A stretch of DNA of 64,000 nucleotides, taken from Zoroaster sp. YZ-2022. Lineage: Eukaryota > Echinodermata > Asteroidea > Forcipulatida > Zoroasteridae. The DNA is taken from positions 36,411,384-36,475,383 of the forward strand of contig CM055819.1 of assembly GCA_029582265.1 (NCBI GenBank). Reading direction: 5' to 3'. Position 1 is the first letter of the stretch; the number at the start of each line of letters is the position of its first letter. The notes under the pieces were generated by a model, which was given only the letters and a program-made list of their open reading frames with translations, was not told where the DNA came from and did no database searches. Positions 3,001 to 54,291 of this stretch are shown here, piece after piece. A program made the translations under genes and the position numbers.

Positions 3001-4188
3001 TGATGTGTGATAACTGACATGAACATTATGTCAAGGGTAAATCGGTAAACTAAAATTAAACATCCTTCAATTGTGTAAAAGTATTGAAGAACAAGCTTGA
3101 CTATAAATATAGAGGCCTATGCATAATTGATTATGGCGGTGATACAAATAATATATCATTTTTTACTCTTTATTCTCAGGGCGAATTAATGGTGTCAACA
3201 ATTTAAATTATTCTTTGTTTGACGGATTACCAAATGATAACATTGTTTTTTTGTGTAGATTATATGTGAATATTCCAAAATATATGGTCTAGACACACCT
3301 ATATAAATGGAGAAGACGTTTCTACTTGCAAAAACACAACGGTGGCAACTATACCAACCAATAATACTTAGCTAATTGTTTAACCTGGAACTATGGACCT
3401 ATGTTAAGTTTTATAAATTATAAATACATAAATTACATTTTCATACATTACAGTAAGGTATAATTATGTGATAATGAAATTAAAATAGAATACAAACATA
3501 AAGTGGCTACTATAAACTGGACGGTATATAGTTATGATATTTACGGTATATTTTTATAATTTATGACGGTAGGCCTATATATTTATGACGTCATATGTTA
3601 ACAACGAAGTTAAGGCCCTTCATTTTATTATTATAGAAATTTAACAAATAATTAATATTTCTCTGTAATTCAAATTCTAGCCCACCGTTTTGTATGACCC
3701 AAAATCTAGACTTGCTTAATAAAATACTAGTCTATACCGATCACAGGTCAAATAAGTTAAATTCCAATATGACGTTTTCGATATGCAGATATGCAGTTTA
3801 AAGGTTTGTAAAACAATGTGTACGTTTATGTGGAAAGTTCAATCAACGGTCACTGCTATTAACGTTATACCATCACTTGAAATTAATAAAAACTATTTAT
3901 AGGCCTATTTGGTATTTTTTTTAAATTCGTGCATTTGGTTTCATTACAAAAGGGGATTATTATTCATTTGATATAACAATTTCCCCCAGTTAACATAATT
4001 ATTGTCACAAATTATAATGGTAAATACATATTCGAGTGTTAGGCAGATCATGGAGGAAGGAAAAGTTTTCCTTCCTCCATGGGCAGATGATAACATTATT
4101 TGGTTTGATTATTTTGAAAATAAAATACTTTTTCTTTCCATGGGAAACAAAAATGTTATTTTATTTTAGTTTTTTGAAGTGCATGGTT
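1..4188. other. Gene-free AT-rich DNA
   Basis: I see no convincing coding exon here; the open frames are short and without recognisable motifs. At about 160-190 there is a GGGGCGGATCCAG word resembling the end of the hAT-like elements found later in the window, but no partner end is visible. A (GT)n/(G)n tract lies at 1188-1230. A diverged direct repeat (GAAACTATTATTAC followed by a TTATAAAGAACAGG-like word) occurs near 2594 and 2771. The rest is unassigned AT-rich sequence. Confidence 0.6.
4049..4081. mobile_element. Miniature palindromic element, copy 1 (33 bp)
   Basis: The element starts CATGGAGGAAGG, ends CCTTCCTCCATG, and is a perfect inverted repeat around a single central G. It is flanked by the 7-bp direct repeat GGCAGAT (4042-4048 and 4082-4088). 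Other copies share the arm sequence but have different flanking heptamers, which is what an insertion with target duplication would leave. Confidence 0.8.
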
Positions 4189-4220
4189 CTATAATCTTTT
4201 CATGACTTTAACAACTTTAA

Positions 4221-4566
4221 TGCATGCATGCATGCATGCATGGGAGCAATAAACAGTGTCCGCTGACCCAAGCACTGAACTTGCAATCACCACAACAAAC
4301 ATGTACATGTCCCATGGAAAGGCAAGTATACCTAATAACCTCAATCCTCTAAAATCCTTCAGTAGTAAAGCAAGCACATGACATGTATGCACGCGTGTTT
4401 CTAATCTGTGACACGTGTACATGGCCAGGGACCCTCCCTGCATGCATGGAGCAATAAACAGTGTCCACTGACCCAAGCACTGACCTTGCAATGACTACAA
4501 CAAACATGGATGTACATGTACCATGGAAAGGCAAGCATGCCTAATAACCTCAATCCTTCAAAATCC
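4221..4566. repeat. Tandem duplication of about 208 bp
   Basis: Two neighbouring copies, beginning near 4243 and 4451, share the AGCAATAAACAGTGTCC start and the AATAACCTCAATCC end with scattered substitutions. A short (GCAT)n run precedes the first copy. The open frames across it are by-products of the repeat. Confidence 0.8.
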
Positions 4567-5647
4567 CTCACTTTAGCAAAGAGGATTTGGGAGGATTTGG
4601 GAAGGTTAATACGCCATTGCTCGAAAAATACAGTTGCTATGCTTTACCATTTCTGCATTTAAACTACGGGTCCTTTTGACTGGTAAAGAAAGTAAATCAC
4701 TTTCAGAAAAATCATTTCACAAAATGATTTACCAGGACATGAATACAGAGTAATGATATTTAATGAATTATTTCACGACGTAGCGTGATAAATTCACTGC
4801 TGGTCAAGGAATGGTGCTGCTTATTTAATTTTTGTAATATACTTTTCAAATTAAAAACAAAATTGTCGGTGAAGTTAAGAAACATAGGCCTATGGAATAG
4901 CCTATTGACATCTTTAACAACAATGTATCCTTCTGTGAACTAACAAAAATGCCACAATCATGACAGCTGTTGTTACAATGAAAAAAGACCACTTTTCTAG
5001 TGCAACTGATGACCTAAAATTCTTATACCCGTTTTGTCGCCAATGATAATGAAGACGATCACTAACAAATATTGTGTATGTATATTAATCTTTATTTAAG
5101 TAGTAGACCTACATACATATTCAAAAACATTGATCTTTTTACCGTCTGTTTATTGGTTTGGAAAAAAGTAAGTACATTTGGTATTGGTTATTTCACAAAT
5201 TTTTAAAAATTACTATCTGGACATTTAAAAAATAATTTTAAGGTAGTGGTGAATGCACAAGACTTATGTACTATGTCTTACAAACATTTAAAGCCCCTAC
5301 ACAACATTGACAATTTTCAAAACAAATGTAATCAAAGTTTTACCTTAAAATAACTTGATGATTATTTAAAGCATTCCTTAAAACAGTTCTCTTTGAGGTG
5401 CTATCATTTTTAGTAAAATAGTCAATTTGAATTATTACTGAATTAAATCTGAATAATTCCATACCGTGTGAGAATTGTAAATGAGAGCTTATGAAACTTT
5501 TCTCAGAAATGTTAAGACCAATTGAGCCAGAATTTTCACAGGTTGACTTAATCTTCACAGAGCGCATTTATTTAATGACCTTTTAGCAAAAGGGTAATGG
5601 GACAAATAATAATTATTTGTGATTAAACACAAGGCCTAATATTTCAA
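4567..5647. other. Gene-free spacer
   Basis: This is AT-rich DNA with no recognisable exon or complete element. It ends at the target duplication of the SINE-derived hairpin downstream. Confidence 0.5.
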
Positions 5648-5661
5648 TAATTATATCCATA

Positions 5662-5908
5662 TAGGTTGGTGAAATTCTTGCGTCTGGAGATAAACAATTG
5701 ATTTAATTTTGCCCTACACCGACGTGTGTATAGCACTGTATGCTCAGTGCTTTCCGAGTGTCTGTGAAAAAACTACACAGGCGACTCGGGCGGGATTCGT
5801 GGGTTCGAATCCCGCCCGAGTCGCCTGTGTAGTTTTTTCACAGACACTCGGAAAGCACTGAGCATACAGTGCTATACACACGTCGGTGTAGGGCAAAATT
5901 AAATCAAT
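5662..5908 (-). mobile_element. SINE-derived foldback insertion
   Basis: Two almost perfect inverted arms of about 104 bp (5696-5801 and 5804-5908) meet around a loop of about six bases in the tRNA-like B-box GGTTCGAATCC. The same sequence in ordinary orientation occurs in the SINE at 50919-51130, so the arms are SINE body and tail folded on themselves, with most of the tRNA-like head lost. The insertion is flanked by a 14-bp direct repeat TAATTATATCCATA (5648-5661 and 5909-5922), typical of LINE-driven retroposition. It lies 10-24 bases past the stop of the minus-strand gene P1, so it would fall in that gene's 3' UTR unless polyadenylation comes first. Confidence 0.85.
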
Positions 5909-5931
5909 TAATTATATCCATACTGCATGGG

Positions 5932-7017
5932 TTATTTCAGTGGGGATGGTTGCTGCCTCACTGCTGTGTGACGTGTAAATGACTTAAGTGCCGACCTAGG
6001 TTGTAACACTTTGGCATCACTCCTGAGAACATAGTCTAAGCTTGGTTCCCAAATCCTCAATGGAATTGAACCTAATGTCTCCTTCCGTAACCTTCCCCTT
6101 GTAACATATCTTGGTGTCTCTCGGTCGGGGAGCAAGGGTGGGGAGTTTGGAGGAGCATCAGGAATGTGGAAGGTGGTGGAAGAGGTAGGTAAGGCGTTAG
6201 TCGTCGAGGGCCGTTGGTGATCGGCCTCTCGTGAAAAATTATGGATATCGTTTTGAATTCTCTGTTTCATGCGGTTCAGAGTCAGAGGGGGAAACCGTGT
6301 CTCACCCGATGTCTCCCCGGCTGGTGAATTGAGTTTGTTACGGTCTACAGTCCTGGATTCCATCTTGCTATTTCCATCGTGATCTCGTTTTCCAGTGATG
6401 GGAAGTTGGTTCATTAGATTTCCTAGCGTAATTCCAGATAAATTGTACCCTCCGGAACCCCCACGTCTACAAGTTCTTAGCGAGGCAAGTTTGGCTCGCC
6501 GTCTCTCGATGTACATATCAGTCTTGGAGCGGTGTAGCCAGTTTGGATTTACTTCTGCATCCTCTCTGGGATCAGTCTGGGGGAGTTGCCTCAAATCTCT
6601 TTTACTTCTCAAGTACCCATGGAAACTCCTCTGTTTGATCACCATGTAATTATCCAGTTGTTCGTTGACCGGGCGATGGACGGTAGGGTCCCCGTGATGG
6701 GACGACGAGTGCCCCTGCAGCGGTTCACGGGCACTGTGAGGATGCACCGATGGGGGTAAATCTGCCTTGATCTCCGGTTGGAGTCTGATATGAGCCATGT
6801 CTACCTGAAAGTGCCGGTCCCTCTCCCTTGGCGACCAGCTAGTCGTTGGAGAATCAACAGCAGAGTCTCCGGACGGTGATGGATGTTTAGGGCTCATGAT
6901 TTCAACACTATCGTGGTAAGTCGTCCGATGAGTGCATAATCTAGGGGTACTCGAAGTTGAGCCAAGACTACCAGTTGAATCACCTAGCCTCCAGTTTGAC
7001 TCGCCCATATTTGGCAT
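5932..7017 (-). CDS. P1: unknown basic disordered protein, 361 aa
   Basis: This is a single open exon of 361 codons from ATG at 7017; a second ATG three codons on is possible. I do not recognise the family. The protein is rich in Arg, Ser, Pro and Thr, with no signal peptide, membrane segment or known domain. Visible motifs are DRHF followed by a Pro/Lys/Asp-Leu pattern (around residues 65-90), SKRDLRQ, and RSKTDM followed by a basic stretch. P6 has counterparts to these (DRHF, SKSDLRQ, RSKSDL), so the two are probably distant paralogues. The exon is clearly more GC-rich than its flanks, supporting real coding sequence. It is transcribed away from P2, with about 9.9 kb of nested transposons between. 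A SINE hairpin follows the stop and a shortened miniature palindrome lies 39 bases before the ATG. Function unknown; upstream noncoding exons are likely but not located. Confidence 0.7.
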   Translation of the reverse strand: MPNMGESNWRLGDSTGSLGSTSSTPRLCTHRTTYHDSVEIMSPKHPSPSGDSAVDSPTTSWSPRERDRHFQVDMAHIRLQPEIKADLPPSVHPHSAREPLQGHSSSHHGDPTVHRPVNEQLDNYMVIKQRSFHGYLRSKRDLRQLPQTDPREDAEVNPNWLHRSKTDMYIERRRAKLASLRTCRRGGSGGYNLSGITLGNLMNQLPITGKRDHDGNSKMESRTVDRNKLNSPAGETSGETRFPPLTLNRMKQRIQNDIHNFSREADHQRPSTTNALPTSSTTFHIPDAPPNSPPLLPDRETPRYVTRGRLRKETLGSIPLRIWEPSLDYVLRSDAKVLQPRSALKSFTRHTAVRQQPSPLK

Positions 7018-7055
7018 TCTGCTTTCACAAACATCGAAAATTCGCAGTCTTCAAC

Positions 7056-7070
7056 CATCCTTCCTCCATG
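7056..7070. mobile_element. Miniature palindromic element, shortened copy (15 bp)
   Basis: CATCCTTCCTCCATG keeps the outer CAT and the complete right arm of the family, with the left arm deleted. It is flanked by a perfect 7-bp repeat CTTCAAC (7049-7055 and 7071-7077). It lies 39 bases upstream of the P1 start codon, in its promoter or 5' UTR. Confidence 0.65.
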
Positions 7071-7077
7071 CTTCAAC

Positions 7078-8420
7078 CAACTCACATAAATCTTGACTAT
7101 CACATTGTTGCCTTTTCCAGGAGAAATCGCCCATTTTTGGCAGAATATTCCACAAATACAGTTAAAGTTTAGCGTAGCAACGCTGCGTGGCGTTCTTGTT
7201 TTTCCTTGTCACTGCACTCCGTGCAGGCAGGGTCAACTCCTTGACCCGAGCCGTGCTCACTCATACTTCACAACCAGATAACATTATTATTCTCAACAAC
7301 AGGTAAACACACACCAAGAAGGTTGTCACAAGGTGTCTACGCCTTGTCAAAACGGCTTCTGCACTGAGCGTGGAATTGGTTCATACGGATCTCAGCGGTA
7401 TAACCGACACATACCAGTATACGGCCAGAAAACCTCCTAAATACTGGCGATGTTTCTATAAACAAACTTGTACATAATAGCGATGCAAATACACTGTGTA
7501 CAATATATCCAACGCCCGAGGCATCAGAAAGTCCTTTGTACTCGTTATCGACCGTGTACCCTTATTGTACCCATGGAGGCGAGGATAAACGTACCCCCAC
7601 ATTATTAATTCATCACGGCAAAGAACACGGACCAAAAATAACGGTTTTTGGATAAGAGGGCGCTATTTCATTCTGCCAACTAATTTATTTACACATGCAC
7701 CGTTGTTGCCACAATGCTCCCTGAAAATAACTTCATGTGGTGTAATCAAACTGACAAAAAAATTCCTTCTGTAGTATGGCTATTGTGGGTGTATTACTGT
7801 GAATGGTTTTTTAAACCCAATGTTTGTCTTTTTTGGTTTTTGATCATGCTTTGATAAAGATCCTGCTAGGTTGGAAACGTCATGCCACAAACAATAATTT
7901 TACAAAATTGGTTTCGTTAAAAATAGTACTACGGGTGGGTTTTAAACATTGTTAATACCATTGTAAATTCAAACTGGTAATAAACTTGCTTCTCTGCATG
8001 GTATGACTATTGTAAGTACATTATTGTGTATATTAAGGTTTTTTTTAAACTAAATTAAAAAAAATTGTTGGCCTATGATAGAGATCCTGCTATGTTCGAA
8101 ACGTGAGGCTACTAACTAAAATATTTCAAAATTTGTTTCGTTAAAAATAACAGAGATATGTCATTGTTAAAACTATTGTCAAAGTTTGTAAGCTATAATG
8201 CTGTAAAAATATTGTTTCCATATTTTAAAAATAAAATTAATCACGGTCAGCGTGATTGATAGGGTGGTTGAGTAACGGGTAACGAATATTTTCGGCTTGA
8301 GCATTTCGTTTGTATAGATGTACAATGTACCAATTTACATACATTGGGGACCTTGATGTCGTATGGACATGCATTGTGAGGCTGTGGTCAGTGCAAACAA
8401 TCACAGATAGCACAAAGGAC
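7078..8420. repeat. P1 upstream region and diverged direct repeat pair
   Basis: From 7078 to about 7780 lies the upstream region of P1, with no clear core promoter. Two diverged copies of a unit of about 160 bp follow (about 7781-7940 and 8006-8170). Each has GATCCTGCTA-GTT-GAAACGT and ends in GTTTCGTTAAAAATA. The GAAACGT box resembles the terminal regions of Penelope-like retroelements, which can carry hammerhead ribozymes, but the CTGATGA half is not present. Confidence 0.5.
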
Positions 8421-8433
8421 CGTTTACTCGAAC

Positions 8434-8461
8434 CATGGAGGAAGGAATTCCTTCCTCCATG
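8434..8461. mobile_element. Miniature palindromic element, copy 2 (28 bp, perfect)
   Basis: This is the smallest full copy: a perfect, spacerless 28-bp palindrome starting CATGGAGGAAGGAA and ending in its complement. It is flanked by the 7-bp direct repeat CTCGAAC (8427-8433 and 8462-8468). Confidence 0.85.
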
Positions 8462-8827
8462 CTCGAACTAAAGACTTCTAGACGCCTTTGCGTGTCCTCT
8501 GAATCGGTACTGTATCCCATCTGCGGAGAGTGTTTGACTTATAAAGATTATACCACTGCCAATCAGTGGCGTATTTCTTGGAAGAAATTAGGGTGACGAT
8601 GCAGGGCGTTCCAAATTTTAAATTGTGATGTTAGAAAGAGAAAAAAATTTGTTTCTCCAGCTGAAAATGCCTTTTGGCATTTCTGTTGGACATCCAGTTA
8701 TAATGATCGGTGGCAATATATATTGAATACATTATTAAACCATCAGTTAAATGTCATTATAGCATATATACATGCTTACGTAACTGTTGGAATTATGTAA
8801 CGAAACTTTTTTTGTTTTCATCGCCAG

Positions 8828-9085
8828 TCCCTACGGCAACGGATGAATAACCACAAGTTTGACATCAGGAATAGGGATGACCAGAAGCCTGTGGCTGAGC
8901 ACTTTAATCTACTTGGCCATTTACTTCAACACTTCGAAGTAGCAGTTCTCAAACAAGGACCATTCAAAACCAAACTTCAAAGGGAAGCAGCTGAACAAAG
9001 GATTATTCACACCCTGAACTGCATTGAACAAGGACTGAATAGAGACTCTGGCTTCATGTCCCAATATACAGGATTAACTTCATGA
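8828..9085 (+). pseudogene. Penelope-like element GIY-YIG fragment
   Basis: The in-frame peptide begins SLRQRMNNHKFDI and continues with KPVAEHFN, GH, a VAVLKQ block, an R/E helix and GLNRDSGF. This order (conserved Arg, His, AEHFN-xxGH, catalytic-region Glu, then GLN) matches the C-terminal part of the GIY-YIG endonuclease domain of Penelope-like retroelements. The N-terminal GIY and YIG strands and the reverse transcriptase are missing, so this is a 5'-truncated copy. Its 3' region continues into a possible hammerhead core and is interrupted at 9185 by a hAT-like element. Confidence 0.8.
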
Positions 9086-9154
9086 GTCACCGCCACCTTT
9101 TGTTTGCCACCTCCTCCCAGACTGTATGACTTCCCTTGTCCTTCTTCATTGCAT

Positions 9155-9180
9155 CTGATGAAGTAGCTGTAGCTACGAAA
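9155..9180 (+). ncRNA. Possible hammerhead ribozyme core of the Penelope-like element
   Basis: CTGATGA at 9155-9161 is followed, after one extra A, by a perfect 5-bp hairpin (GTAGC-TGTA-GCTAC) and GAAA at 9177-9180. This is the order of the hammerhead core (CUGAUGA, stem II, GAAA). Hammerheads are known in the terminal repeats of Penelope-like elements. The extra A and the unresolved stems I and III make activity uncertain. The adjoining stem would have been cut by the hAT-like insertion. Confidence 0.4.
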
Positions 9181-9184
9181 GCTT

Positions 9185-10054
9185 CAACGGCGGATCTAGG
9201 CCCAAAGTTTAGGGGGGGCCAAATGCTCAGTGGAGGGGCGTATTTGCGAGCGCAAAACGTTTCTGGTGGGGTTTGTTTGTTTTGTGGGTCTAGACGACAA
9301 TACTTGATTTAGTATGAAATTTCAGTGATAAGCTTTGGATTTGAACCCGCAACCTTGTGATTGTAGGCTAGGTCCTGCGGTCTAACCACTTGACTAATGC
9401 AGGGTTTCCGGAAATGCTTAGCTTCTGGTTGCTCTGAGCGGACAAATATTATTCATAAATAGATTAGCTTTTTCCACTGTATATGAGCCCTATAATGGTC
9501 GTTGAAATACCTGTATGGCAAAATGTGGCGATTGGAGGAAACAACAACAATCAGTTAAAGCAAGAAACTAAAGTTCAATCGATGGACACCGCTTGTGGCG
9601 AAGTACTCAATAACCCGAGTGGTGGTTGGGAGACGGTCACGATGAGCTTGAAGGAGGATGAGGACTCAGGCGATCCTCTCTCATGGTTGAACGCAAAGCA
9701 GTCAGGGTACGCGATGTTCGCGCCAAGTCTAAACGTAGGCTCTACATTGCGGACGTTGCATGGCTCACCTAATATCCAGGAAACCCCACACAACCAGTCG
9801 CGTGTGCATAAGCCATGCATACAATCACCGTGTACGCCTGTCTAATGCAGCTTGGCTTAACTGCACAAACTACCATTGCAAATTTTGTGGCAATGTTGGA
9901 TCGTGAGTAGGATTATGAACACATTCATGTAGCCAATCAGTGTGTTGTAATTTGCATACTTTAACAAAAGCTGAACGTATAAGCAAGACTTAGCTGCACA
10001 ATGAGGGGGCGTAAAGTTGTGGGGTTTTGTTTGTCTCTTTTCCCCTTTTTCTTC

Positions 10055-10091
<37 letters not shown>

Positions 10092-10164
10092 TTTTTGGGT
10101 GTACAGCTTCGGTTTTTTGGGGGGGGCCATGGCCCCCGTTGGCCCCCCCCTGGATCCGCCGTTG
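9185..10164. mobile_element. Non-autonomous hAT-like element, 980 bp
   Basis: The ends are imperfect terminal inverted repeats, CAACGGCGGATCTAGG on the left and CCTGGATCCGCCGTTG on the right. They are flanked by a perfect 8-bp duplication GAAAGCTT (9177-9184 and 10165-10172). An 8-bp target and CA..TG ends fit the hAT superfamily. Inside are a decayed tRNA-like SINE head on the minus strand (about 9340-9405, with A- and B-box-like words), an open frame of about 120 codons at 9483-9845 with no recognisable domain, and a pyrimidine/poly-T tract near 10030-10096. No transposase is visible. The element sits in the tail of the Penelope-like copy. Confidence 0.8.
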
Positions 10165-10360
10165 GAAAGCTTATGCCTATTTTTAAGTTTAGTTAGTCTT
10201 AAAAGTGCTACCATTTATATATATATATATATCTTATTCTACCTGACTAACACGGCTGCATACAGATCTTTGTTTTCATCCAAAGCATGGGGAAAGATTC
10301 AGCTCAATTCAGGTTTTCAGCAAAGGGGAACCAGGCGCCCCCGACCGCGCTAAAAAATAA

Positions 10361-10451
<91 letters not shown>

Positions 10452-10452
10452 G
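10165..10452 (+). repeat. Penelope-like tail and (TAAA)n tract
   Basis: This sequence resumes the retroelement tail after the hAT-like insertion: a short (TA)n run near 10217 and a CCTGACTAACACGGCTGCATAC block, then about 95 bp of (TAAA)n. The same tail recurs at 13794-14244 with a longer (TAAA)n. Confidence 0.7.
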
Positions 10453-10711
10453 AAGAGATTATTTACATTGTAGTCCGAATAATATCGGATCTCAATTTCA
10501 CCCTTAACATATGATTTACAGAAAGTATCAAATAATGAATAATTATTATATCGGCATTTTCTATATTACAGAGAATACTTGAGGTGCTCCCAAGTGTGAG
10601 ATGATATTTAACATCTAAGCTGCCGGATATAAAAAGCTCCCCATATATATATCATAATATTCATTTGACATAAGATAGTTTTCTAACTTTGTATATTCTT
10701 CGGATCTAATA

Positions 10712-13100: not shown

Positions 13101-13192
13101 CACATAAAGTGTGAAATCTTGGTCTTCCTTAACATCCCAATAAAATCCTTTTGACAACATTGTCATTTTGTTTGGCAGGAAATTATTTTCCA

Positions 13193-14244
<1,052 letters not shown>

Positions 14245-16146: not shown

Positions 16147-16206
16147 TTGGTTACAACTCGTAGGATGTGTCGTTGCTTGGTTACAACTCGTAGGATGTGT
16201 CGTTGC
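16147..16206. repeat. Exact 30-bp tandem duplication upstream of P2
   Basis: The unit starting TTGGTTACAACTCGTAGG occurs twice in perfect tandem. It lies about 700 bases before the P2 start codon, near a possible noncoding first exon. Confidence 0.9.
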
Positions 16207-23380: not shown

Positions 23381-23473
23381 ATGTACTATTTGGCATTTAT
23401 AATACAGGTCATTTAGATTGGTAACCAGTTTGCAACAATTAATTCTCTATTTATTAGATAATAGAAAAAGTAT

Positions 23474-24127: not shown

Positions 24128-24133
24128 TTTATT
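24128..24133 (-). terminator. Poly(A) signal of P3, one base after the stop
   Basis: On the minus strand the sequence reads TGA-C-AATAAA, so the canonical signal begins one base past the P3 stop codon. The 3' UTR would be only tens of bases long if it is used. Confidence 0.6.
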
Positions 24134-24134
24134 G

Positions 24135-25175
24135 TCAAAGATCCTCATCAGATTGGCTAGACTGGCCAAGAGGGGTGTTTGGTGGGCAAACATGCCCAAA
24201 TCTTGACGGTTCATAATGGTGACACATCGGACAGTCAACACTATGTAGCGCACGTGAGTCATCAGAAGTACCGCTGGACCCGCCACTCTCGCCGGGCGTG
24301 GTCCGCCTGGTCTTGTCCTGGATGTCCCCAGCCGTTACGTCAGCCCCAGACCTGCTGCGTAGTTTTCGAACCATCTCATCCGAATTCTTGTAAGTCAATT
24401 CAAAGTCAAATGCATCGCTGCGAGTTGAGCCACTGCGCTTGTACTTTCTGCTGGCCGTTCTGGTGTCTCCGAGACTGTGGTGCCGTCTGTCCCTCCAAGA
24501 TGCACGGTGGAGCCGATCACCACACCGGCGATTTTTGTCTGATGCTGTGAAGTCGTGGAGTACGGCAGTTTCTGACCTCTTAGCGGCCAACCGCCGGATG
24601 ACGACCCGTTCTCTGGATGAGGCGGCACCCATGCTTGCAGCTCGATGAGTCCGAAATGTGTCGACAGCATCTCCGATGCTACAGTTGAGGGGTGCTCCTT
24701 TAGAGTAACGCATCCTGGGAACGGGGCGGGGTTCGAGGGGTCCCAGCAGAGATTGGCCTCGGTTCAGAGCGGCCCTGTCTACTTGACCAATACGGAGAGA
24801 ATCTACAAACTCTGTGGATATGCCACTGTCCGCCACTGCATCCTTTCCATCTGAAAGCCACCGATCCCTGTGATGTGAAATATGTGATTCTGTATCCCTG
24901 TCCTTTCCAGTTCTTTTAAATGATGAGTTTGCTTTCGTGGGTACTTTGGCATCAGTTTGATCTCGCTCTATCGGTTTATTGCGTCCATTTTGTTTCTTCC
25001 TCATGTCAACAGTGAGGCCGCATTCTTCCACTCGTATCTGAGGCAACTGTGCATAGTTCCTCTTGCCTACGGACCCATCACTACTTGGATTCCCCTCATC
25101 CGTCCCTCTTTCGATACTGTTTGTTTTACTGAACATAAACACAGGTGTGGTTTTGTAGAGCATGCCAAAAGTCAT
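24135..25175 (-). CDS. P3: unknown Cys-motif protein, 346 aa
   Basis: This is a single open exon. I chose ATG at 25175; the frame is open a little further upstream but has no earlier ATG. The protein is very basic (many Arg, Ser, Asp), probably disordered, and has no signal peptide or membrane segment. A DSGIST hexamer near residue 113 resembles a beta-TrCP phosphodegron, which is only suggestive. The C-terminus carries HSVDCPMC followed after 11 residues by CPPNTP (Cys315, Cys318, Cys330; His at 319, 320 and 328). P5 ends with the same pattern, which marks the two as paralogues. The C-x2-C-x11-C spacing could bind a metal with a His as fourth ligand, but no known zinc-finger class fits. It is convergent with P2 and followed by an immediate poly(A) signal. 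Function unknown. Confidence 0.75.
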   Translation of the reverse strand: MTFGMLYKTTPVFMFSKTNSIERGTDEGNPSSDGSVGKRNYAQLPQIRVEECGLTVDMRKKQNGRNKPIERDQTDAKVPTKANSSFKRTGKDRDTESHISHHRDRWLSDGKDAVADSGISTEFVDSLRIGQVDRAALNRGQSLLGPLEPRPVPRMRYSKGAPLNCSIGDAVDTFRTHRAASMGAASSRERVVIRRLAAKRSETAVLHDFTASDKNRRCGDRLHRASWRDRRHHSLGDTRTASRKYKRSGSTRSDAFDFELTYKNSDEMVRKLRSRSGADVTAGDIQDKTRRTTPGESGGSSGTSDDSRALHSVDCPMCHHYEPSRFGHVCPPNTPLGQSSQSDEDL

Positions 25176-26611
25176 TGTGCGATTACGTTGCCACAAAAAA
25201 CCTCAAATGGGTTGTCGACATACATGTACTTGAGATAAATTTCTACAGCAACGGCCAATATCTTCAGTAATTATTCTTTAAATCACGAACACGATTATTT
25301 GATCCCAAAGTAAACATACGCCACTAATATGCGCGGTATGCTTTTAAACTTTCTTGACTCTAAACAGTCAGTACTGGTCCAGATTGGTCTACAGCAGTTC
25401 GTTAGTTGTCTAAGCAGCTGTAGTGAAATGTTGGGAAAAAAGTACGTCAGTTTGACCCTTTTAATGGTCGTAGTTTCCCAGCAGTTTTAACAAGAAAATT
25501 GCATGGAGGTAGAACGGCAAATCTCTCTGACGGTCCTGAAGATGAATGATCACTCAGGTGAGGAGTTCACCGGGCGTAATTAATTTCACCGTTCATGTAC
25601 TTATCGACAATGTCACTCTCCACGCATCGGGGTTAAAACAAAGGTTGTACGGTCAGAATAAATCTTGAAAACGAGATTTCTAATAAACACCTGTTTACCT
25701 GTTCGCCGTTTCCTGGGCGTTCACGGTTAATGCGTGTGCTGCTTTGGCTATTAAGAATCTGTTCTCACGATCAACACCTAGTTGGTACTCGGAGTAAAAT
25801 GGTCTGATTACAATGCAGTAACATAGTCATGTGGCATATCTGAATGTCAAGTTTATACACGGATACATTTTATACGATGAAAACTGCATGGAAATTATTT
25901 CTGTTGCTTGTCCATGGTCGCAAATTTCGTTACAGAATTCAAAGTGATGATGTTCGGCCATTAAACACACACATAATGAAGAGCAAGGACGAAAACAGAC
26001 AGCACACCGTGGGAGATAATGCTGTGACACGAATTCATCAACGGTCATAAACTTACAGTTATTGGTATTGCATTCACAACTTCCAGTCTGTATTGTTGCA
26101 CTGCTATTATTGGAGCTTCATGTATGTAACGCCTCTAGCAGAACAGACTATACCATGAATGACCAAATGACCTGGGAGCAGCGACAAATCAACGCTAGGG
26201 ACAAGTAATGCTCGTATGGCGCCCCTACAGTTTGAACATTGCTTTAGTACATATATACATATACTCACAAGAGTCACACTGACTCAAGCTTTCGTGTACA
26301 CTTAAAAAAACAACACCATGCAAACATGTATCGATTACACAGCAATTATTGCCGTGTTTAATCAAGCTGAGCAAGCTTGATATCAAATACTACGCAAGTG
26401 CTCTTTCTTGAAAGAATGCAAATAAGTTCTAAGAGTATCGGCTAACTGCTCGAGAATTTTTCAATTAAGGGATTCAAACTTCCACACGGATAAGGTTCTG
26501 ATGCGTGAAATTTAATTTGAAACTTGAAAGAACACCCATTAGATACAAACAAATCCAATACTTCACGTATTATGCTTTTTACTTTTGTTCTATGTATGAT
26601 CTCTTTTAAAG

Positions 26612-27190
26612 AGAAGACACAACAAAAAACTGCTTCTATGAGTATGCTTACTCTTTTTGAATCAAGATATATATTGAAGGGAAGGTATAACTTTGGCAAT
26701 GTTGCCAAACTGCTTCTATGAGTACCGGTACGTTTACTTTCTTTGAATCATGGAGGAAGAAAGCTTTCTTCCTCCATGTTTGAATCAAGATATACATTAA
26801 AGGGAAGGTACAACATTGGTAATGTTGGCAAAACTTCTTCTATGAGTATACTTAGGCCTACTCTCTTTGAATCAAGATATACATTGAAGGGAAGGTGAAA
26901 CATTGGTAATGTTGGCAAAACTGGTTCTATGAGTACGCTTACTCTCTTTGAATCATGATATACATTGAAGGGAATGTTTAGTCTATTTGAATCAAGATAT
27001 ATACAATAAAGGGAAGGTACAACATTGGTAATGTTGGCAAAACTGCTTCTATGAGTACGTTTACTTTCTTTGAATCAAGATATTAAAGGGAAGACATAAC
27101 ATTGGTAATGTTGGCAAAAGTGCTTCTATGGGTACCGTATTCTTACCTTCTTTGAATCAAGATATAATATGCATTAAACAACCAACATGT
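26612..27190. repeat. Tandem array of 80-100 bp units
   Basis: Six to seven diverged units share AACATTGGTAATGTTGGCAAA, CTGCTTCTATGAGTAC and CTTTGAATCAAGATATACATT. Single diverged copies occur near 15010, 33800 (inverted), 57725 and 63547 (inverted). A miniature palindrome interrupts one unit at 26749. Confidence 0.85.
26749..26778. mobile_element. Miniature palindromic element, copy 3 (30 bp)
   Basis: A perfect 30-bp palindrome CATGGAGGAAGAAAG with its complement, flanked by TTTGAAT on both sides (26742-26748 and 26779-26785). Sister units of the surrounding array read CTTTGAATCAAGATATA without interruption, giving the pre-insertion sequence directly. Confidence 0.9.
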
Positions 27191-28231
27191 GAAAGTTTCA
27201 GCTCAATGAAGAGTCTAAGTCATGCGAAAAGTGTGAAAAGCATTCGCAATTTTTTTTTTACAGAAACCACATTAAGCAAATGTTATTTTCAAACAATCAC
27301 CGCCACCCGAGGACCCGTTAATTGTTCACTTGCAGTGTGTTAGTCCTTGGTTTACGCCATAAACAAACTCATCCCTTTACACACACAAAAGCCGTGGTCA
27401 CGTCAGGCTATTTCCCAGCTTTACAAACAAATTGACACGACCGGTTCTTAACAAGTGTTTATAGATAGTCCACACAAAAACTGAGTAAATACACCGACTC
27501 CTTGAAACTATCTTGAATACAGTGAATTTACACACATTCACCTCAGTCCAAAAAAATTAAGGAATTTATGATGCAGTATTTGGGGGATTTCATCATCCAT
27601 TACATAACAAAGTATTCCATTAATAATTAGTATAATTACCCAGCTCTTAAACTGTACAATATATTAATTAGCTTGAATTTTTCGTTTAGTTTAAAAACGG
27701 CGTTTTGGTTTGTATACTGAGATGACATGGGGACTTACTCAGACAGTGGAAAGCAAAGATAACTTGATAGACACCCCGTGTCACAATGAAGCATCGTTAT
27801 ATTCATTAGTATTTCTCTTTATATGTTAATTTTTTTTATAAATGGTTTATTTAAAATCGACCATCGCAGCCAACAGCTGAATTGCGGCCAGATTACATAA
27901 AAACTATCATACAAAGAAAGAATCTTTAAAAAGAGATTAATATTGACATAATATGAGCATGCAGAACATGACGTTTAAGACTGGATATTCTAAAGAATAT
28001 TCTAAGGTAATATGCGACCAGAAGTCGTGTACATATACACTTCTGATGCACCCTTAAATCATAAGCCTACTATTTCCCTAAAAGATCCATCACAAGTTCT
28101 TGTAAATATTACCAATTATAGTTTGAAAAATGTCTTCATCTAAAGCAACAGAGAAATAAGTTATAGTTGTAGCTTTGGATGGTGAAAAGGATAAGTAAAG
28201 GTTGTTTGCGGTGACACCATGTGAAATTATC

Positions 28232-28369
28232 AATTGAGCAGTAATTAGTTCTGAAAAGAACTGCTGGTTACACTGGCTACAACTCGACGTTTCGATCAGT
28301 ATGCTCTGATCGTCTTCAGGAGAAAGTTGTAACCACCAGTTCTTTTCAGAACTAATTACTACTCAATTG
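28232..28369. repeat. Foldback with about 40-bp arms and a GATCAG hairpin loop
   Basis: AATTGAGCAGTAATTAGTTC...GGTTAC is mirrored by GTAACC...GAACTAATTACTACTCAATT. The loop holds CGATCAG-TATGCT-CTGATCG. A related single-orientation copy lies at about 47100-47205. ACGTTTCGATC followed by CTTCAGGAG resembles Penelope-like terminal regions. Confidence 0.65.
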
Positions 28370-29459
28370 AGTCTTTTACATGGTGTAACCGTAAACAGTC
28401 TTTATTCAACAAGTGTTTTCTTTATAAATGAATTGAAAACACAATCACCTTTAACTTACTGGGTAGAGCCTATTCTGAATATAGGGTAGACGAAACAGTC
28501 TCTTCGTGCTCAACAAAAATAATATACTGCACGGTTTCTTTACTATAATGAGCCTATTCATCTAAATTCAAAGTAAAGCTATAAGAGTGTTTTATATAGG
28601 GTGACTTTCATCCAATCATATCCCGCCTAATCGAGTGTGACACGCCCACTATAGTCACCGACAGTCACCTTTTCCAATCAATGCTCTGTGCAACAGGAGA
28701 CAGCAGTTTGATGAGAGTACTATAAAAAGTCACCCACACCATCACATGATTTGAAATAATTATAATGCAAATTTGTTTAGCGCCCTCAAACCATTCAGAA
28801 TAAAAAAGGTTAACTGCTTTGAACTGGAATGGCCGTTTACCAGAGTTGTAGTAGGCTATTCGTAGTCCTACTCGTGTACTCATGACAATGTATGGGGTAT
28901 TTGAAATGTGAAAATCCAGTAGAACTAGAAGCAAGATCCTAGTACATCAAAAACGTACAGAAGACCTAGGCCCTATATACGGTTCTTCGCAATAGGCAAG
29001 ATCCAAACCGCATGGTGTTACCGCAAACCGAACCGACAATCATTTGAAATGATTTCGCAACATACAAATAATGGTTTACTTTATTTATTGTCAAATTTAT
29101 TCTTGTTCTGGTCGGTTTTTCTTGGTTTTTGTCGGCAACAAACATGCATAGTTTTGGCTTTAAACATGTTTAATGGTCCCGGTACTGGTAATATAAACGT
29201 CTACATGGTATTTGCATGCACGCATTCTGTCGTAACACAAACAGTATGAAAGTATTTATTAGGCCTATATTATACACGAATACAAATGACAACAATATCC
29301 TTCCTTTCAGTAAGTATTTCTGTGCACAAATTCATTTTGAATCGGGCCATAATGTACTAATAAGGGCCTGTTTGTTTAGCACATATCCGAACCTCGATCA
29401 CCAGACCGTATTTATCTGGGGTTAAGCAAGTTGTAAGTTTTCATTTTAAGACATTGAAC

Positions 29460-29494
29460 CATGGAGGAAGGAAAGTCTCTTTCCTTCCTCCATG
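29460..29494. mobile_element. Miniature palindromic element, copy 4 (35 bp)
   Basis: CATGGAGGAAGGAAAG and its complement surround a 3-base centre. Flanked by ATTGAAC on both sides (29453-29459 and 29495-29501). Confidence 0.85.
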
Positions 29495-30465
29495 ATTGAA
29501 CCAACAAAAAATTCCGTCAAGGATTAGTACCAGTAAAATAAAAACTCAAATTAATACAATGCTAGCCCACTGTTCACAAGGAATGTTCACTGTTCAATGT
29601 TCACGAATTTAATGAACAAAAAATTAAGATTTGTTCGTTTAATAACGATATTATCAAACATTCAATTTGGATGAACTTATATTTGAATAAGGAAGCAAAA
29701 TAGGAAATGTTGTCATAGCAAATAACTGCACTTTAATTTTAAATTTACAAAAACATTATTGTATCGTACAACTACCGTATGTCATAAAATCACAATACAT
29801 TCAAATAAACTGATTAGCTTACTTAAAACACGGCACTGTAAAGGGTGTTATGCTGTATATAACTGTCTATCACAAAATCAAATCATATAATATCAATTTA
29901 TTAATTTTTCTTATCAAATATGAAATGCTCGGCTTCTCTCTATATGGCTAGTCCAACAAGAACGGGAAGCACATAAAGTTGCCGCAATCATTAGTATTAT
30001 ATGGCTCTGTTATGATTACCCAGACTGTGAAAATGCACCAATTTATAATTGAAGTTTTGGTTTTTAATAAGCTGGCCGGTCCAAATCTGTTTACTCTTGT
30101 TTAATTTAAGAAAAAGCTAAATCTATGTTTCATTCGAATCAGCCAGTGCACTTAAGGGGATTGTACACCAGTGGTATAAATGCATCCACGGATATGTACA
30201 GAAACAAACCTGTGAAAGTTTCAACCTATTTCATTTTGTCGTTGACGAGAAAAAAAGTGAAAATGCATTTAGATTTTTGTCTCATGAAATCAATAATTCA
30301 GTTTGGAAATTATTTTACAAATTTTACTAAAATGATAGCCACTAAGAGAGAGATTTCAAGGGATGTTTTAAACCTTGAACAACTTTACACTAAGACTGAA
30401 TGTAAAACTGTGACCAAAAGTTTTTTTTTTTAGTGTCAAAATGTTCCGTGGAAGTAGAAAACAAA

Positions 30466-31803: not shown

Positions 31804-33214
31804 TTTATTGAGAGATTATCTTCGACGAAGTGTCAGGTGACAAAGTACATTTCTGTCCAATCCGAACGGTCAATAAAATCCAACTTCCGATGACGTGTAA
31901 TACTCTCTAGTCGCAATGATGACCACTGCATACAATGACAACTGGCTTTCAGTCTTATGCAAAATTTATCTGACTCTGCAAAATAGGACAATCCTATTTT
32001 TGAGCCGATATTGGGAGATCCACGTCTTTAGTAAAGGGAGGCTAGTCTTCAATTGTAAGAGCATAAATGTCTACATTCCGCAGAAAATTAAGAACCATTG
32101 ATGACAATGCTGTGGTCATGTAATAATTTTGTTTTGTATGCTGGTAGCCTCGTTTGCCAACGGTTAAACAAAGTATTTTGTGCAAGCATGTAGTCACGGG
32201 GTGTCGAATTCTATTTACAGAGTGATTTTCATCCTAACACTGGCTTCTGGCACATCATTGTTACGGGCGCTGTAAAACAACTCCTGCCTCAATAGTTTAT
32301 CTCCACAATACATCACCGATATGTGTTATAATAAACACGAACAACCGCCACTTCGCTATCCAAACACAAGTGCAGAATACCCCGTCAGGAGCAATTAATT
32401 TTGTTTTCATTCAACCTTTATTACCAACATGAAAGGTGGCAACCTCGTCATTATCTCCCGTGTTAAATGCAGTGCAAAGGGTGTAGGGTTTTACCCTTCC
32501 GGACCCTGTTGTGCAGATGTATTATACAATGGCTTCCTTCATGACTGTACTGTCTCCGTTTTGCTCCCGCTCAGCATTACCTATGGCCACTGGGGCTTTA
32601 TGATGGAGTGACTGTGTAATCAGCGAAGTGACTGCTATAATGGGACGAATGTCTTTAAAACTATCGGTGGAAGGAGTAAACAATCCATTAAAAAAAAAAC
32701 AATTCCAATGTCGCTTTCAAAGTTATTTACCAAACGTCATTTAACGATTAGTTGTCAGGTCGACCGGCGAAGTGCTGTTTTGTGTCATAAACCGGTACTG
32801 ATATCTGGGTATTTATACCTCCTGTGACCCTCGGTGCATGAATGCCTTTTTAGGTATGAATATTAAATTTGAAAAAATGTACCGCATAATTCCCCATTAT
32901 ACACTGTATTCTTAAGTCTAATAAATGTTATGGGAATAATTATAACAAACTGGTTTTACCACAGTGGTTTTAACTACTCTGTTCTGTAAATGGGTATCGT
33001 ATTTATTGGCGGGAGCGCACTTTTTTGTGGAAATCATGGTAGCTATTTCAGGGCTTGTTACACTTTTGCAACAACATTTTTATTAGATATGTCAGAAATC
33101 GTTTATTTTAAATGAAAAGTACAATATTGGTAATTACCCAATTACAAAATTATCGAATTATTATCTGAAAGGTAACTTGAAGCTGGTAAATGTACCAACC
33201 ATCATTATGTCTGA

Positions 33215-33218
<4 letters not shown>

Positions 33219-33275
<57 letters not shown>

Positions 33276-33618
33276 TGTGGACTTATATAGCGCACGTATC
33301 CACCAACTAAGTGGTGCTCAAGGCGCATTATATTATTACCCCTGCTCATAAGGCTCATAAGGCTCATAAATCATTCCTGAAACCATCTCAGCTCCCTGGG
33401 GAGTATACAGCTCAATTGCTGCCATTACAGCGCATATAGGGCTAATCAACCAACTCTGCCCTCACAGGTACCCATTTAACCCCTGGGTGGAGAGAAGCAA
33501 TTATGGTTAAGTGTCTTGCTCAAGGACACAAGTGTCACGGCCGGGATTCGAACCCACATTCTGCTGCTAACACCAGAACTTGAGTCCGGTAAGCTAGACC
33601 GCTCGGCCACGACACTCC
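33219..33618 (-). mobile_element. tRNA-derived SINE (family A), copy 2
   Basis: Same body as the copy at 21698, with the tRNA-like head at the right end (B-box GGGATTCGAACCC on the plus strand) and a pure (AAT)n tail at 33219-33275. Confidence 0.85.
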
Positions 33619-36600
33619 ATTGCTTTCATTCGAGAGAAACCACAAACAAATATCTATATTTTCAAAACGTTTTTGCTTAAAATGTTATCTGTAAACATTT
33701 GGGAATGCTTTTTCACATTTTTTCCCCGAATAACTTAGGCTTAGACTTTCACAGGCTTATTTTTAATGTATATCTTTAATAATAAAAAAAACCATATTCA
33801 TAGAAGCACTTTGAGTTTTGCCAACATTGCCAATGGTGTAACTGTAACACATTTCAGTATAACAGACATGCCTTTTATGATATATTCGCCAGCTTATTCC
33901 GTGTAAACGGATATAATTGAGCTACAAGATTCATCACGAATCATTCGTTGAAGATTACGGTACGAATACTATACAACTTACGAGGGTAATGACTCTTTCT
34001 TGTAATGTTCTCTTATAGCACAGGAAACAAACACTAGTCTGGTGGCAAACGCAAGATTTAAACATCGGCGTAAACATCGGTATTTAAGAAAAGATTGAAC
34101 AGTCAAAATACCCGGCATGTCAAATTGTGGAGGAATTGTGCCACTATTCGAACAATCATCGCACTGGATGATTTGGACAATGCAGATTTTTGCACAGAGT
34201 GTAGAACGATATGAAGCTTAGGATAAGGCGTCAAGTTGCATGATTTAAGTGATACATAATGCTTTTTGGGGCATGAAGTGTATCACAGTCGTAAAGAACA
34301 TTAGTCCAAATTACATTCATTGACTGAAGTGAATGATTGTTAAGTCACACAAATTCTTCTTCTGAAGCACCTCTTTTTTATTTTTAGAGAAGGTTATCAA
34401 ATACTTCTGATATTCTATGATTGAATTGAAGTATAATAATTTCACACAATTTTTGCTAGAAATGGTTCATGACCTTTCTTAATTATCTCTGAAACATTCA
34501 AAGGTCAGATTTATATGACATTTCTTGATTCCGCAGATTGAAACTTACTCCAAAAATCCCGGTAAGAATACACTAATCTGCACTACAGAATCCATGAATG
34601 AACGTTATGGCACCATCCATCCCATGCTCATCTGGTAACCAACTGTACGATAACAGTATCGTCAGCAATAGCTGGTACTCACTGATACACCGGTCCATTC
34701 TGCCAATCAAACAACAGCACTTTGGTAACCAGTCCGGTTGGTAAGTGTGACATCATCTCAGCATAAGCCACACCCTTAACAAAAATCTGATATCATACGA
34801 AAATGCAGTGCCTATACTTTCACATTTACAGAAGAAATCGTAAAGAGTAAGAGTTTATGTTTTTGCAAAAGATAAAAAAATCTTACTACTGGTTACCAAT
34901 TCAGCGATATTATCGCACTGATTTCGTGAAAAGGGGTTTTCAATCTTTTTAATTAAACAGTAATCTAATATTGCGTTGGAGCTAGTAGGCTACACGTTGT
35001 AAAACGAGTGTATGTGCCGTTTATGACGCACCCACTTACGAAAAGGATAGAGCTGGCTTTCCATGACGACTGTCACTACATCGGTTTTTATGCAGGAGGC
35101 GTGACTGAATTTTCAGAATTGCTAAGGGTTGGCGTGGACTATGACCATATCTGTATTGGTGTATTGCATAAAATATTATTTTACTGAACAAAAAAAATAT
35201 GCGATAATATTAAGAAGAGGCTTTACCAAGATGGGCCATGTCAGTGAATTTACAAACCTCAGCTATCCCATATCGGTCTGACATCACACGCAACCATCTA
35301 CTCGTACATGCACACTCATGTGATTTTAATGTACTGCAAGGGTTATGTAGAGTTTATATCCCCAGCTAAAGATAACAGCAATTTAATTGCACACTAATAC
35401 ATGATTAATAACGCTGCCACTATAAACTTTGAAACCCTTGAAAACACCCACCAGATAATGAAACAGAAATAATTTTTGACAAATTGAAGCTAATCATCAG
35501 TAAATTGTTTACCATGAAAATGATTATTGGGCATGAAGACCCAGATATTTCAAGACGACTATCATTTTAGCATTATAAGGTTATATCAATACCCGATTAA
35601 TACTTCAGATAATACTGACTGACAATAAATTACCTGCAGTCATGTGAAGTAATAAGTTTTTATTAACTATAGGTAAACATAAAGTATTTATCTTACCAAA
35701 ATATTGGTAATTACCTGATTACAACATTTACCAAATTATTATCTGAAACGGCTAACTTGATGTAAAGTTTTGCGTCATTAATAACAAAGTATTGATCATT
35801 GATAAATTATGATTATAAACATTGATAAATAAATGATCATTTGATAAATTACTGTAAAAGAAACCGACACTTTTCCAAAGAAAACTAACTACATTTCAAA
35901 GGAGCGGTTTTTCTCTTACAAACACGTTTGCAATGTTGCCGTTAAAACAATGGGTAAATGGATAAGTGTAGGTTTATACACGTTGGTTTCACCTTTGCCA
36001 TTTAGTGTTTGGCTCCAGTCTTACTTGTTTCTTATTTTCACAGCCTTGGAAACCATCGTAAGTGGAAACACTAGTCTCACAAATTACCACGGCCTGTTCT
36101 CTTGAACAGTCATACATCTTGACTGAGAGGCCCTATTTCAAACTTACCGAAATACATGTACATCCACTGAGTCTCAAAACGGCTGTTATATTGTGTCAGG
36201 ATTTATTCATAATGATAAATATATGTGCCATTAATAAAGATGAAATCATTTGCTTGCGCTGTTGATTATAAAAGTAATCATGCTTTCAATTTCCGCATCA
36301 CAGTTGAATACAAAATTACTCTTCTCACCATTACAAATTGTTATCAAGAAACAAGTGACAGTCATGTTATGTTATCCCAAAGCAGTCTATGTATTAAGTG
36401 TTTGGGCTTTTCGAGGTTTCAAATGCAAAGTCCTGTGAACCTTTGTTTTTTGGGGCCATTGTTTTTTGTATCTAAAATGACATTTTGAAATTCAACGCCA
36501 AGACATTAATTGGTTAACAAGGTGACCCACTACCCATACGACCTGTGTCAAAAAGGTTATCCAAACAGGCTAACCCCTGCAACATCCAACCAGATCCAAT

Positions 36601-38492
36601 GTAGCTGTATACACTACTAGTTGACGTCTTGTTTTCTTCCTTCATAGTTGACTTCAGATATACATTCATTAGTTTGTTTCCGACAAAGGTTTAATCCGAT
36701 AATGAAGCATAGGATGGCTTACACTCCTTTTTGTTATGGTCTTCTGTGTTACTTTTTTATGAAGGCTCCGTAACTCTAATTTACTCGTATTTTCTATCGC
36801 AGACCTAATTTTCCCAGTTGATAAAACAACAAGGCAATCATTAAAAAAATGATTCAATGAACCGCCACTAACATTTCGTGCATGTATGGTTGCCAAGGCG
36901 ATAAAGAGCCCTCTTTAGTTTTCAATTCTTGGGATCATACCAGACCATCCTACCCGCTTGTAGACATCTACTGTAGCCATCATCCCGTAGCCATCAATCA
37001 CCCTACTCTGCTTATTATACCAATCAACAAGTAAAAGTTATTGTCCGGTCTTTTTGTAGCATGGATAAGAAAATACCCGATTTACATCCCTTTGTTACTT
37101 GGCTCTGACTTCCGGGCCACGTCCATCAATAGGCCGGCCCACCAAGAGGCCATGAGCCAGGAGTCCAGACCATTGATTATCTGTTTTTCTTTTCAATAGG
37201 AAATTGAAAGAATGTAGCCAGCTATTCAGAACAGTTTGAGGGCATTCGGTAGCAAGAACAGCCATGTTTCGACCTGAAGTGTGGATGTTCGTTTGGACTC
37301 CTGTTTACAGCAAACAAGTGAAACATTATTTGTCTTTTTTTCCCCCACAAATTGCTGTATTGAGATCTTCTCGTGATTTAGAGAATTGAACTGTGTTTCT
37401 TGTGTCAAAAGAATGTGCATCCCCGCTGTTGTGTTATGTTGACATCAAAGTATTCGTCCAAGGACTCACCATATCTTACGCCATTACACAACGTTAGGAT
37501 TAATGAAATACTGTATTCAGTGTAATAATTAATACATTTTCAAAAGCTCAACGAGCGGTGATTGCACACAGACATCTCAAGAGGACTTGAACTCGCACGC
37601 AGCCACTTGTGTATGCGGAAATTCACCGCCAATCGCCAGCTGTTGTCGAGAGCAAATCGCTAGGGCAACGGCATGGTCATACCTTCCTGTTTTTGATATT
37701 TCACATTGAAATCCAAACCATCAAGCCGATCAAAGTACCAACACGACTGAGGGTAATTCATGTGTCAGTGATAAAGATGATGAAATGTTGAGAAAGAAGA
37801 GGAAAGTGCTGTTGAACTCCTCTAAGTCTTTGGCTCGTATACGACGGTCATTCATCATTAGCTCATCTGCTATCGATGCACCAGTCGGAAGGAGAGGTCC
37901 GCCATGAGGCCTTGAGGATCTTTCTCGCCGCATTAGACCGCAGGTGTGTTGAATTGATTTCGATGTAAATAACAGAAGTACTGTTTCCATGCAGAAAAAT
38001 GTATATAGAAACTAACGGATTTGCTTGTTAAATTTATAATTTCGTACAGATCAGGTATAAGGTAAACAAACAAAATTTTATTAAGGCAATTTGATCAGTA
38101 TTTTCATGGCTGAACCACTTATAGTGGCTGCCGAAACGCAAATTAACACAGAACCACTACTGAATGTGAATTTCATTCATTCCATTGACATTAAATCATG
38201 CAACAGATGTAAAGATCATATGATGAGGTCATTCAGTTGAATTACTTCATTATAAGTTGCATTATAAAAACAATAAAACCTATCGTAACTGGTTTTCATT
38301 CCACGAAAGTTAGAAAGAGCTTTTCTTTCATAAGAAACATTAATGGTTGCATTTCATGTAATTATATTATCCACCATTATTATATATGTGATAGGCCTAC
38401 ATTAATGTTGATAAAGTGATTAATTTGGTTCATTCACCCTCTTTGTCGACGAAATTTGATAATTTGTTTACATTTATTGAGTTACGTCAACC

Positions 38493-38508
38493 CATGGAGG
38501 AAGGCATG
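38493..38508. mobile_element. Miniature palindromic element, shortened copy (16 bp)
   Basis: CATGGAGGAAGGCATG keeps the left arm and the terminal CATG, with most of the right arm deleted. Flanks GTCAACC (38486-38492) and GTCAACA (38509-38515) match at 6 of 7 bases. Confidence 0.6.
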
Positions 38509-39128
38509 GTCAACATCACCTAGTTTCATTTTACAAAGAGCTGGGACCCCATGTTATTATCGGACCTTAAACACGTGTTAGGTGACATTTAAGATCTAAA
38601 CTGAAATGTATATAGGCCTACTCCAAGATCATGGACGCAGAATAACTTATTAATGATTGAATTACATGTCGTAGGTTTCTACTATAAACAAACCCGACGG
38701 TCAATGTTTAGCCTTCAGTTGGCGCTTCTTGAAATGAAATCGAACCCATAACGGTTCGTTTTTGCTTTGATGGTGTAAGCTTCTAAACTTACAAATTAGA
38801 CACCGGTGGATTTCAACCACCAATCCATCATATTTCCTGTAGTTAAGGATGTTTTTTCTTGTCCATCCCACTCGATAGAACCAAGACCGACCAACTTATG
38901 TCAGTAGTTTTTTGTTAGCAAACGGAAAGGACAAGCCGATATAGGTGAGTGCTCTTTTCCAGGAGTGAACAACGTATTCTTGCTATTTTAATGAAAATGT
39001 GGGTGATTGTAGTTTTAATTACTCACAAAACAAAAGTTATAATCGTTGTTTCCTCTTTTATTTTACAGATATGACACAGATTCATGATGATGAAAGCCAG
39101 CAAACGAGCAGCATAACATGTGATCACC

Positions 39129-50443: not shown

Positions 50444-54291
<3,848 letters not shown>

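Follow-up and report, generated by a model that had tools for sequence, protein, structure and literature searches.

The question raised by this locus is how several short palindromes that share one arm sequence, each standing between two copies of its own 7-bp sequence, came to lie at unrelated positions in the DNA of a sea star. The window, meaning the whole stretch of 64,000 nt of Zoroaster sp. YZ-2022 that was analysed, contains six such sites bounded on both sides and a further one-sided copy; all positions given here are counted within it. Most probably, a DNA transposon of the P superfamily was inserted at each site and later excised, and what remains is the repair scar of this full cycle. 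The anatomy of the sites is what is expected from the end-joining of two broken transposon ends, rather than from copies of one small element. If this is true, each palindrome is the record of a past transposon jump in and out of the chromosome.

Anatomy of the palindromic sites

The first-pass annotation of this DNA had reported four full palindromes starting at 4049, 8434, 26749 and 29460, each with its own exact direct repeat of 7 bp, and two shortened copies, one at 7056 with an exact CTTCAAC and one at 38493 with GTCAAC plus one mismatch. All six have been recovered at these coordinates with the same repeats; a one-sided exact copy of the arm at 61747–61758, which lies outside the span ending at 38515 that had been given, was missed. 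No strand is assigned to any of the sites. The first scar (4042..4088) has GGCAGAT at 4042–4048 and again at 4082–4088, flanking a 33-bp palindrome (4049–4081) with a stem of 16 and a centre of 1, and is read as 17 nt plus 16 nt of transposon ends. In the third (8427..8468), duplicated CTCGAAC encloses a 28-bp palindrome (8434–8461) with a stem of 14 and no unpaired bases, read as a blunt join of 14 and 14 nt. The fourth (26742..26785) has duplicated TTTGAAT around a 30-bp palindrome (26749–26778), again without unpaired bases and with a stem of 15. This palindrome reads CATGGAGGAAG-AAAG and has one G fewer in each arm, so that CATGGAGGAAGG is not complete there; the earlier claim that all four copies carry the full sequence holds for 4049, 8434 and 29460 and fails for 26749. 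The G missing from both arms is read as a variant of the parent with matching ends (15+15). The fifth scar (29453..29501), with duplicated ATTGAAC, encloses a 35-bp palindrome (29460–29494) with a stem of 16 and three unpaired central bases. It is read as 16–17 nt per end with 1–3 filler bases, and at least one filler base is needed because 35 bp is longer than two 17-nt ends.

Two further scars are lopsided. The second scar (7049..7077) has an exact CTTCAAC on either side of a 15-bp sequence, CAT joined to CCTTCCTCCATG (7056–7070), and is read as 3 nt of one end and about 12 nt of the other. The sixth (38486..38515) has GTCAACC on one side and GTCAACA on the other, differing by one mismatch, around the 16-bp sequence of CATGGAGGAAGG joined to CATG (38493–38508), which is read as 12 nt of one end and 4 nt of the other. 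A probable seventh scar (61747..61765) is one-sided, with CCTTCCTCCATG (61747–61758) followed by ATCAGAC, and its split is read as 0+12. The second arm and its duplication were not found there, and the other four occurrences of ATCAGAC in the window are all without CATGG after them. Overall, the target duplication has been kept on both sides exactly in five of the six two-sided sites and with one mismatch in the remaining one.

Chance is a poor explanation of the arms, because the exact 12-nt arm occurs nine times in the window, counting both strands, and not once in 20 Markov resamples. Among 115 short palindromes in the window (stem of at least 7, loop of at most 8; a count made without a resample control), just the four full copies adjoin an exact repeat of at least 6 bp, which is 7 bp in each case, and no other palindrome family with flanking duplications of at least 6 bp was found among the 115. 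A looser scan for a 7-mer, a prefix and suffix of the arm and the 7-mer again, with at most one mismatch between the 7-mers, gave nine sites, of which six were those already known and three were weak one-mismatch sites; 100 resamples gave a mean of 1.01 and a maximum of 4, the strength of their matches not being tabulated separately. The three weak sites (7845, 31929 and 35400) were rejected as minimal scars since they stand at chance level in the resamples.

The same 12-nt arms were also met in three hairpins of 45, 30 and 43 bp in prokaryotic contigs, namely in Streptomyces, a Pelosinus metagenome-assembled genome and a metagenome-assembled genome of the Nitriliruptoraceae; a viral contig collection gave no matches to the arms. 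The hairpins, which were dropped from the set, lack flanking duplications as judged by eye, and they could be taken to favour an origin of such palindromes by chance or as regulatory sequences, for instance protein-binding sites. Such an origin of the sea-star sites is barely credible, as it is contradicted by the exact duplication of 7 bp around each of the four full copies, by the absence of exact arm matches from the resamples and by the uninterrupted sites that follow.

The fourth scar lies in a minisatellite (26626..27165, + strand) with periods of about 77–87 and 209. Six other units of this array read TTTGAATCA(A/T)GATAT uninterrupted, with a single TTTGAAT each, and insertion with duplication at this scar follows from the comparison. 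The uninterrupted site is seen for one scar only, and in paralogous units of one array rather than at the same locus in another haplotype. The first-pass annotation had argued for insertion with a constant target duplication of 7 bp, and this part of its account is supported. As to age, the four full copies show no mismatch in 178 bases of paired arms and duplications, which bounds divergence at about 1.7%. The count leaves out the unpaired central bases (1 and 3); the copies were chosen as intact and palindromes may correct themselves, so the value is only a rough sign of youth. Unlike the four full copies, the sixth scar has duplications that differ by one base.

Unrelated insertion sites with duplications of a constant 7 bp would also arise if the 28–35-bp palindrome were itself mobile, as a miniature element of extremely small size on which a transposase encoded elsewhere acts in trans, and the lopsided copies could then be later deletions inside an unstable palindrome. 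The first-pass annotation had treated the unit of about 30 bp as a possible mobile element. This is not favoured, and we regard it as very unlikely. One arm sequence is common to the sites, and the four full copies diverge from arm position 11–12 inward to the centre. Their centres all differ, at the very point where an end-join would be expected to fall, though arms and duplications are without mismatch, and the four share no interior of the kind by which a miniature inverted-repeat element is recognised. With stems of 14–16 bp and total lengths of 28–35 bp, the full copies are never longer than two ends of 17 nt and one additional base. A stiff duplex of 30 bp is hardly able to bring its ends together. 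Moreover, P-type cuts made 17 nt inside both ends would leave almost no double-stranded element, and the palindrome would lack the internal 10-bp sites to which the fly P transposase has been reported to bind (PMC7776569).

Target duplications and the probable parent transposon

If the palindromes are joined transposon ends, the duplications around them may point to the kind of transposon that left. The element 1360 (Hoppel/ProtoP, P superfamily) of Drosophila has been reported to have a 7-bp duplication as the mode, at 274 of 279 sites, with the target motif GTTNAAC (PMC3276498). This motif was thus published for another element and not fitted to the sea-star sites. The six duplications agree with it at 24 of 36 informative positions, where 9.7 are expected, and no equal score was obtained from 200,000 sets of 7-mers drawn at random from the window. 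The score is 23 when the other copy of the imperfect duplication (38493) is used and at most 16 when the frame is shifted by up to 8 bp. GTTNAAC ranks first among the 64 palindromic motifs of its shape, and a score of 24 with any of the 64 was reached in none of 3,000 random sets. The four full copies alone agree at 15 of 24 positions (P = 0.0002). Both the 7-bp length and the fit to GTTNAAC are independent of the arms. The likeness to 1360 concerns the duplication and the target site; the window differs in having no element body and in lacking the flanking preference of the P group, which is taken up below. Galileo, a foldback-type member of the P superfamily, also makes a 7-bp duplication (PMC2775673, PMC4168063), which is the mode for the Galileo of D. 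willistoni (PMC4168063). It differs in its long repetitive ends, and its motif GTANTAC fits the sites less well (16/36, P = 0.014).

A start in CA is a defining mark of the P superfamily. With CATG ends and duplications of 7 bp, the sites agree with what is used to recognise this superfamily (CA start, 7–8 bp), and the ends of the parent transposon may be reconstructed from the arms as CATGGAGGAAGGAAA(A/G).... Among deuterostomes, the P-type element Pdre2 of zebrafish has ends that start with CAT (CATACC) and a duplication, AGGTGAAT, that resembles some of the sites (PMC10983969). The differences are that its duplication is 8 bp long and that its 13-bp ends, CATACCTGTCAAC, are otherwise different (PMC10983969). 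A P-element transposase domain has been described in three THAP9-like genes of a sea cucumber, and the class of these genes has been reported from other echinoderms (PMC13228809).

A different parent had been proposed in the first-pass annotation, which named Dada transposons as a possible partner, so that the sites would be deletion-reduced Dada-type elements. Dada duplications are 6–7 bp long, and some of the sites are similar to the ones made by Dada-U1 (GCGAAT/GCGAAC; PMC3706591). However, Dada-U6 and Dada-U1 are described as having no terminal inverted repeats, whereas the sea-star sites begin and end in one, and Dada elements with clear termini are reported to occupy small-RNA genes (PMC3706591), whereas none of the seven sites lies in a predicted transfer RNA (tRNA) gene or other Rfam match. 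The proposal fits badly and has almost no probability, although a Dada element carrying CATGGAGG ends would revive it.

Comparison with excision junctions of the fly P element

Scars of P-superfamily excision can be compared with junctions described from Drosophila. The fly P transposase makes staggered cuts, one at the element boundary and the one on the opposite strand 17 bp into the terminal repeat, and this 17-nt stagger has been called unusually long, setting the enzyme apart from other characterised cut-and-paste enzymes (PMC7776569). According to Table 1 of PMC2895639, most fly P excision junctions keep the 8-bp duplication and up to 17 nt per end, joined head to head. Among the two-armed products, a perfect palindrome of 30 bp enclosed by the duplications is the most frequent (14 of 66 isolates); other junctions are lopsided, contain fillers or have lost sequence past the duplication (PMC2895639). 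With arm lengths transcribed by hand from this table, both arms retain at least 12 nt in 33 of the 66 isolates, and 7 isolates are lopsided. The window sites fall into the same visible classes, with at least 14 nt on both sides in four of seven, lopsided arms in two and one side lost in one. Palindromes of about 30 bp, mostly retained duplications, small fillers, lopsided joins, losses past one duplication and CATG ends are therefore common to both sets (PMC2895639). The fly junctions differ in that their duplication is 8 bp and that they were induced in the laboratory from a known element (PMC2895639). Those of the sea star are natural and several, with a 7-bp duplication, a purine-rich end and no parent seen in the window.

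On this model, insertion into a GTTNAAC-like site would duplicate 7 bp; the duplication is seen at the sites and an uninterrupted paralogous site is seen for one of them. At excision, the transposase would cleave one strand at the border of the element and the opposite strand about 17 nt into the terminal repeat, at both ends, and the donor ends would keep up to 17 nt of transposon end, as the length of the palindromes and the action of the fly enzyme suggest. The two overhangs, identical and non-complementary, would then be trimmed and end-joined to give duplication, arm, inverted arm and duplication, in the manner of the published fly junctions. The arms would be perfect because the two ends of the parent were identical, and independent joining of each full copy would account for the differences at the centre. 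The earlier suggestion of a hairpin product of excision or end-joining is thus borne out as far as a palindromic product of these processes fits the sites best, and the hairpin intermediate is unnecessary.

Several points weigh against a P-superfamily origin. An earlier study, cited in PMC3276498, gave 1360 the looser motif KTNBWAB. Within the window, GGCAGAT matches GTTNAAC at two of six positions, and position 1 is G in just two of the six sites. The target tendency of the P group reported from Drosophila is ANAGT / ACTNT, reaching outside the duplication as ANA...TNT (PMC3276498), and this flanking preference was not seen at the six sites, where 6 of 24 outer positions agree against 7.4 expected. 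In the fly table, 20 of the 66 isolates are long-microhomology joins with little or no arm, and the table comes from Rad51-deficient flies (PMC2895639). Excision by zebrafish THAP9 has been reported to produce flanking deletions of larger size in fly cells and to be accompanied by many rearrangements in human cells (PMC10983969), and tidy scars are therefore not universal to P-type enzymes. The sites number only seven and were all found through their arms, so that scars without arms would be invisible. Similarly, the looser scan, by which the six two-sided splits were assigned, took ends of at most 17 letters and could not have reported a longer arm; the 17-nt limit rests instead on the palindromes' own lengths. 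A parent element with these ends was not found in the window: a search for exact 7-mer duplications within 8 kb of each other and around inverted ends that agree in at least 12 of 16 bases gave six pairs, which were the four palindromes and two AT-rich chance pairs. No Pfam match was obtained in the 10 scanned of the 29 listed open reading frames (ORFs) of the window, and no transposase was seen among these ten. Seven scars with no recognisable element in 64 kb is also a high ratio.

The unseen flanking preference would be accommodated if the transposon whose excision left these scars belonged to another superfamily, with a transposase that likewise cuts far inside the ends. The assignment to the P superfamily comes from the end sequence, the target motif and the length of the duplication and not from a transposase. 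We consider such a parent rather unlikely. The P transposase is said to stand apart by its 17-nt stagger from the other characterised cut-and-paste enzymes (PMC7776569). In addition, the 7-bp length and the motif would point to the P superfamily even if the arms were set aside.

A possible scar family and other features of the window

The scars of many cut-and-paste transposons are just a few bases long and are difficult to identify afterwards. As the duplications can be separated by about 30 bp after a P-type cut, past departures become readable and countable from an assembly. Intact copies would be held down by selection and silencing, and scars would be nearly neutral, with one added at each end-joined departure, so that scars could come to outnumber elements. 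Seven scars without an element in 64 kb agrees with this expectation and is no proof of it. A tentative extension, which may well prove wrong, is that the genome holds a dispersed, scar-only 'repeat family': a near-neutral record of end-joined P-type departures that far outnumbers the living copies, is young, has many members still segregating and was made by a transposase that may still be active in the germ line. What appears to be new is that P-type scars with a 7-bp, GTTNAAC-like signature occur naturally as a dispersed set, and in an echinoderm. In the literature searched by title and start of abstract, a search outside which most subscription journals lay, no description of a dispersed family of naturally occurring P-type scars was found. 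If seven per 64 kb is typical, lifetime excision, the end-joining habits of the germ line and element turnover could be estimated in a wild animal without crosses. The excision origin, if true, would also suggest that a P-type transposase was active in sea stars in the recent past. It also holds a warning for annotators of repeats, as a palindromic 'element' may be a scar.

The window contains other inverted structures. A 118-nt inverted repeat at 5682–5923, 97% complementary and with 6 nt between the arms, resembles a fold-back or miniature element and has a possible 3-bp flanking repeat, TGC, noted by eye only. At 28196–28404 lies a candidate miniature element with 77-nt inverted arms that are 87% complementary and 55 nt apart. 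A candidate DNA transposon of 2482 bp occupies 56643–59124 and has 48-nt inverted ends, CAGTCCGGGAAAACTCC..., which are 98% complementary. Arrays of a 16–17-bp unit, CAACTCGGACCCA..., run in opposite orientation at 59144–59342 and 59906–60106, about 560 bp apart; jointly they form a large fold-back structure (59144–60106) with the outer ends AAGGT...ACCTT. Two inverted arms of 318 nt, 97% complementary, surround an ATA array of 200 bp at 52517–53567. Inside one of them ARAGORN calls a tRNA-Thr (53480–53563), which was not confirmed by Rfam at gathering level, and the structure is perhaps an inverted pair of tRNA-derived short repeats. The sole gathering-level Rfam match in the window is a tRNA at 50998–51071 (−), with 43.5 bits.

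Two long ORFs, at 24138–25202 (−) and 39120–40496 (+; also given as 39117–40493), share VDCP.C..Y..S..G..CPPN(T/S)P in their C-terminal parts and possibly belong to a local family of uncharacterised proteins. The product of the second has 68% identity over 99% of its length to an uncharacterised protein of Asterias rubens, and the values for Acanthaster planci and Patiria miniata are 54% and 53%; judged by these identities, the host would likely be related to Asterias (Asteriidae). It has no Pfam match, and its sea-star relatives extend over its length, with those from urchin and sea cucumber covering about a fifth of it.

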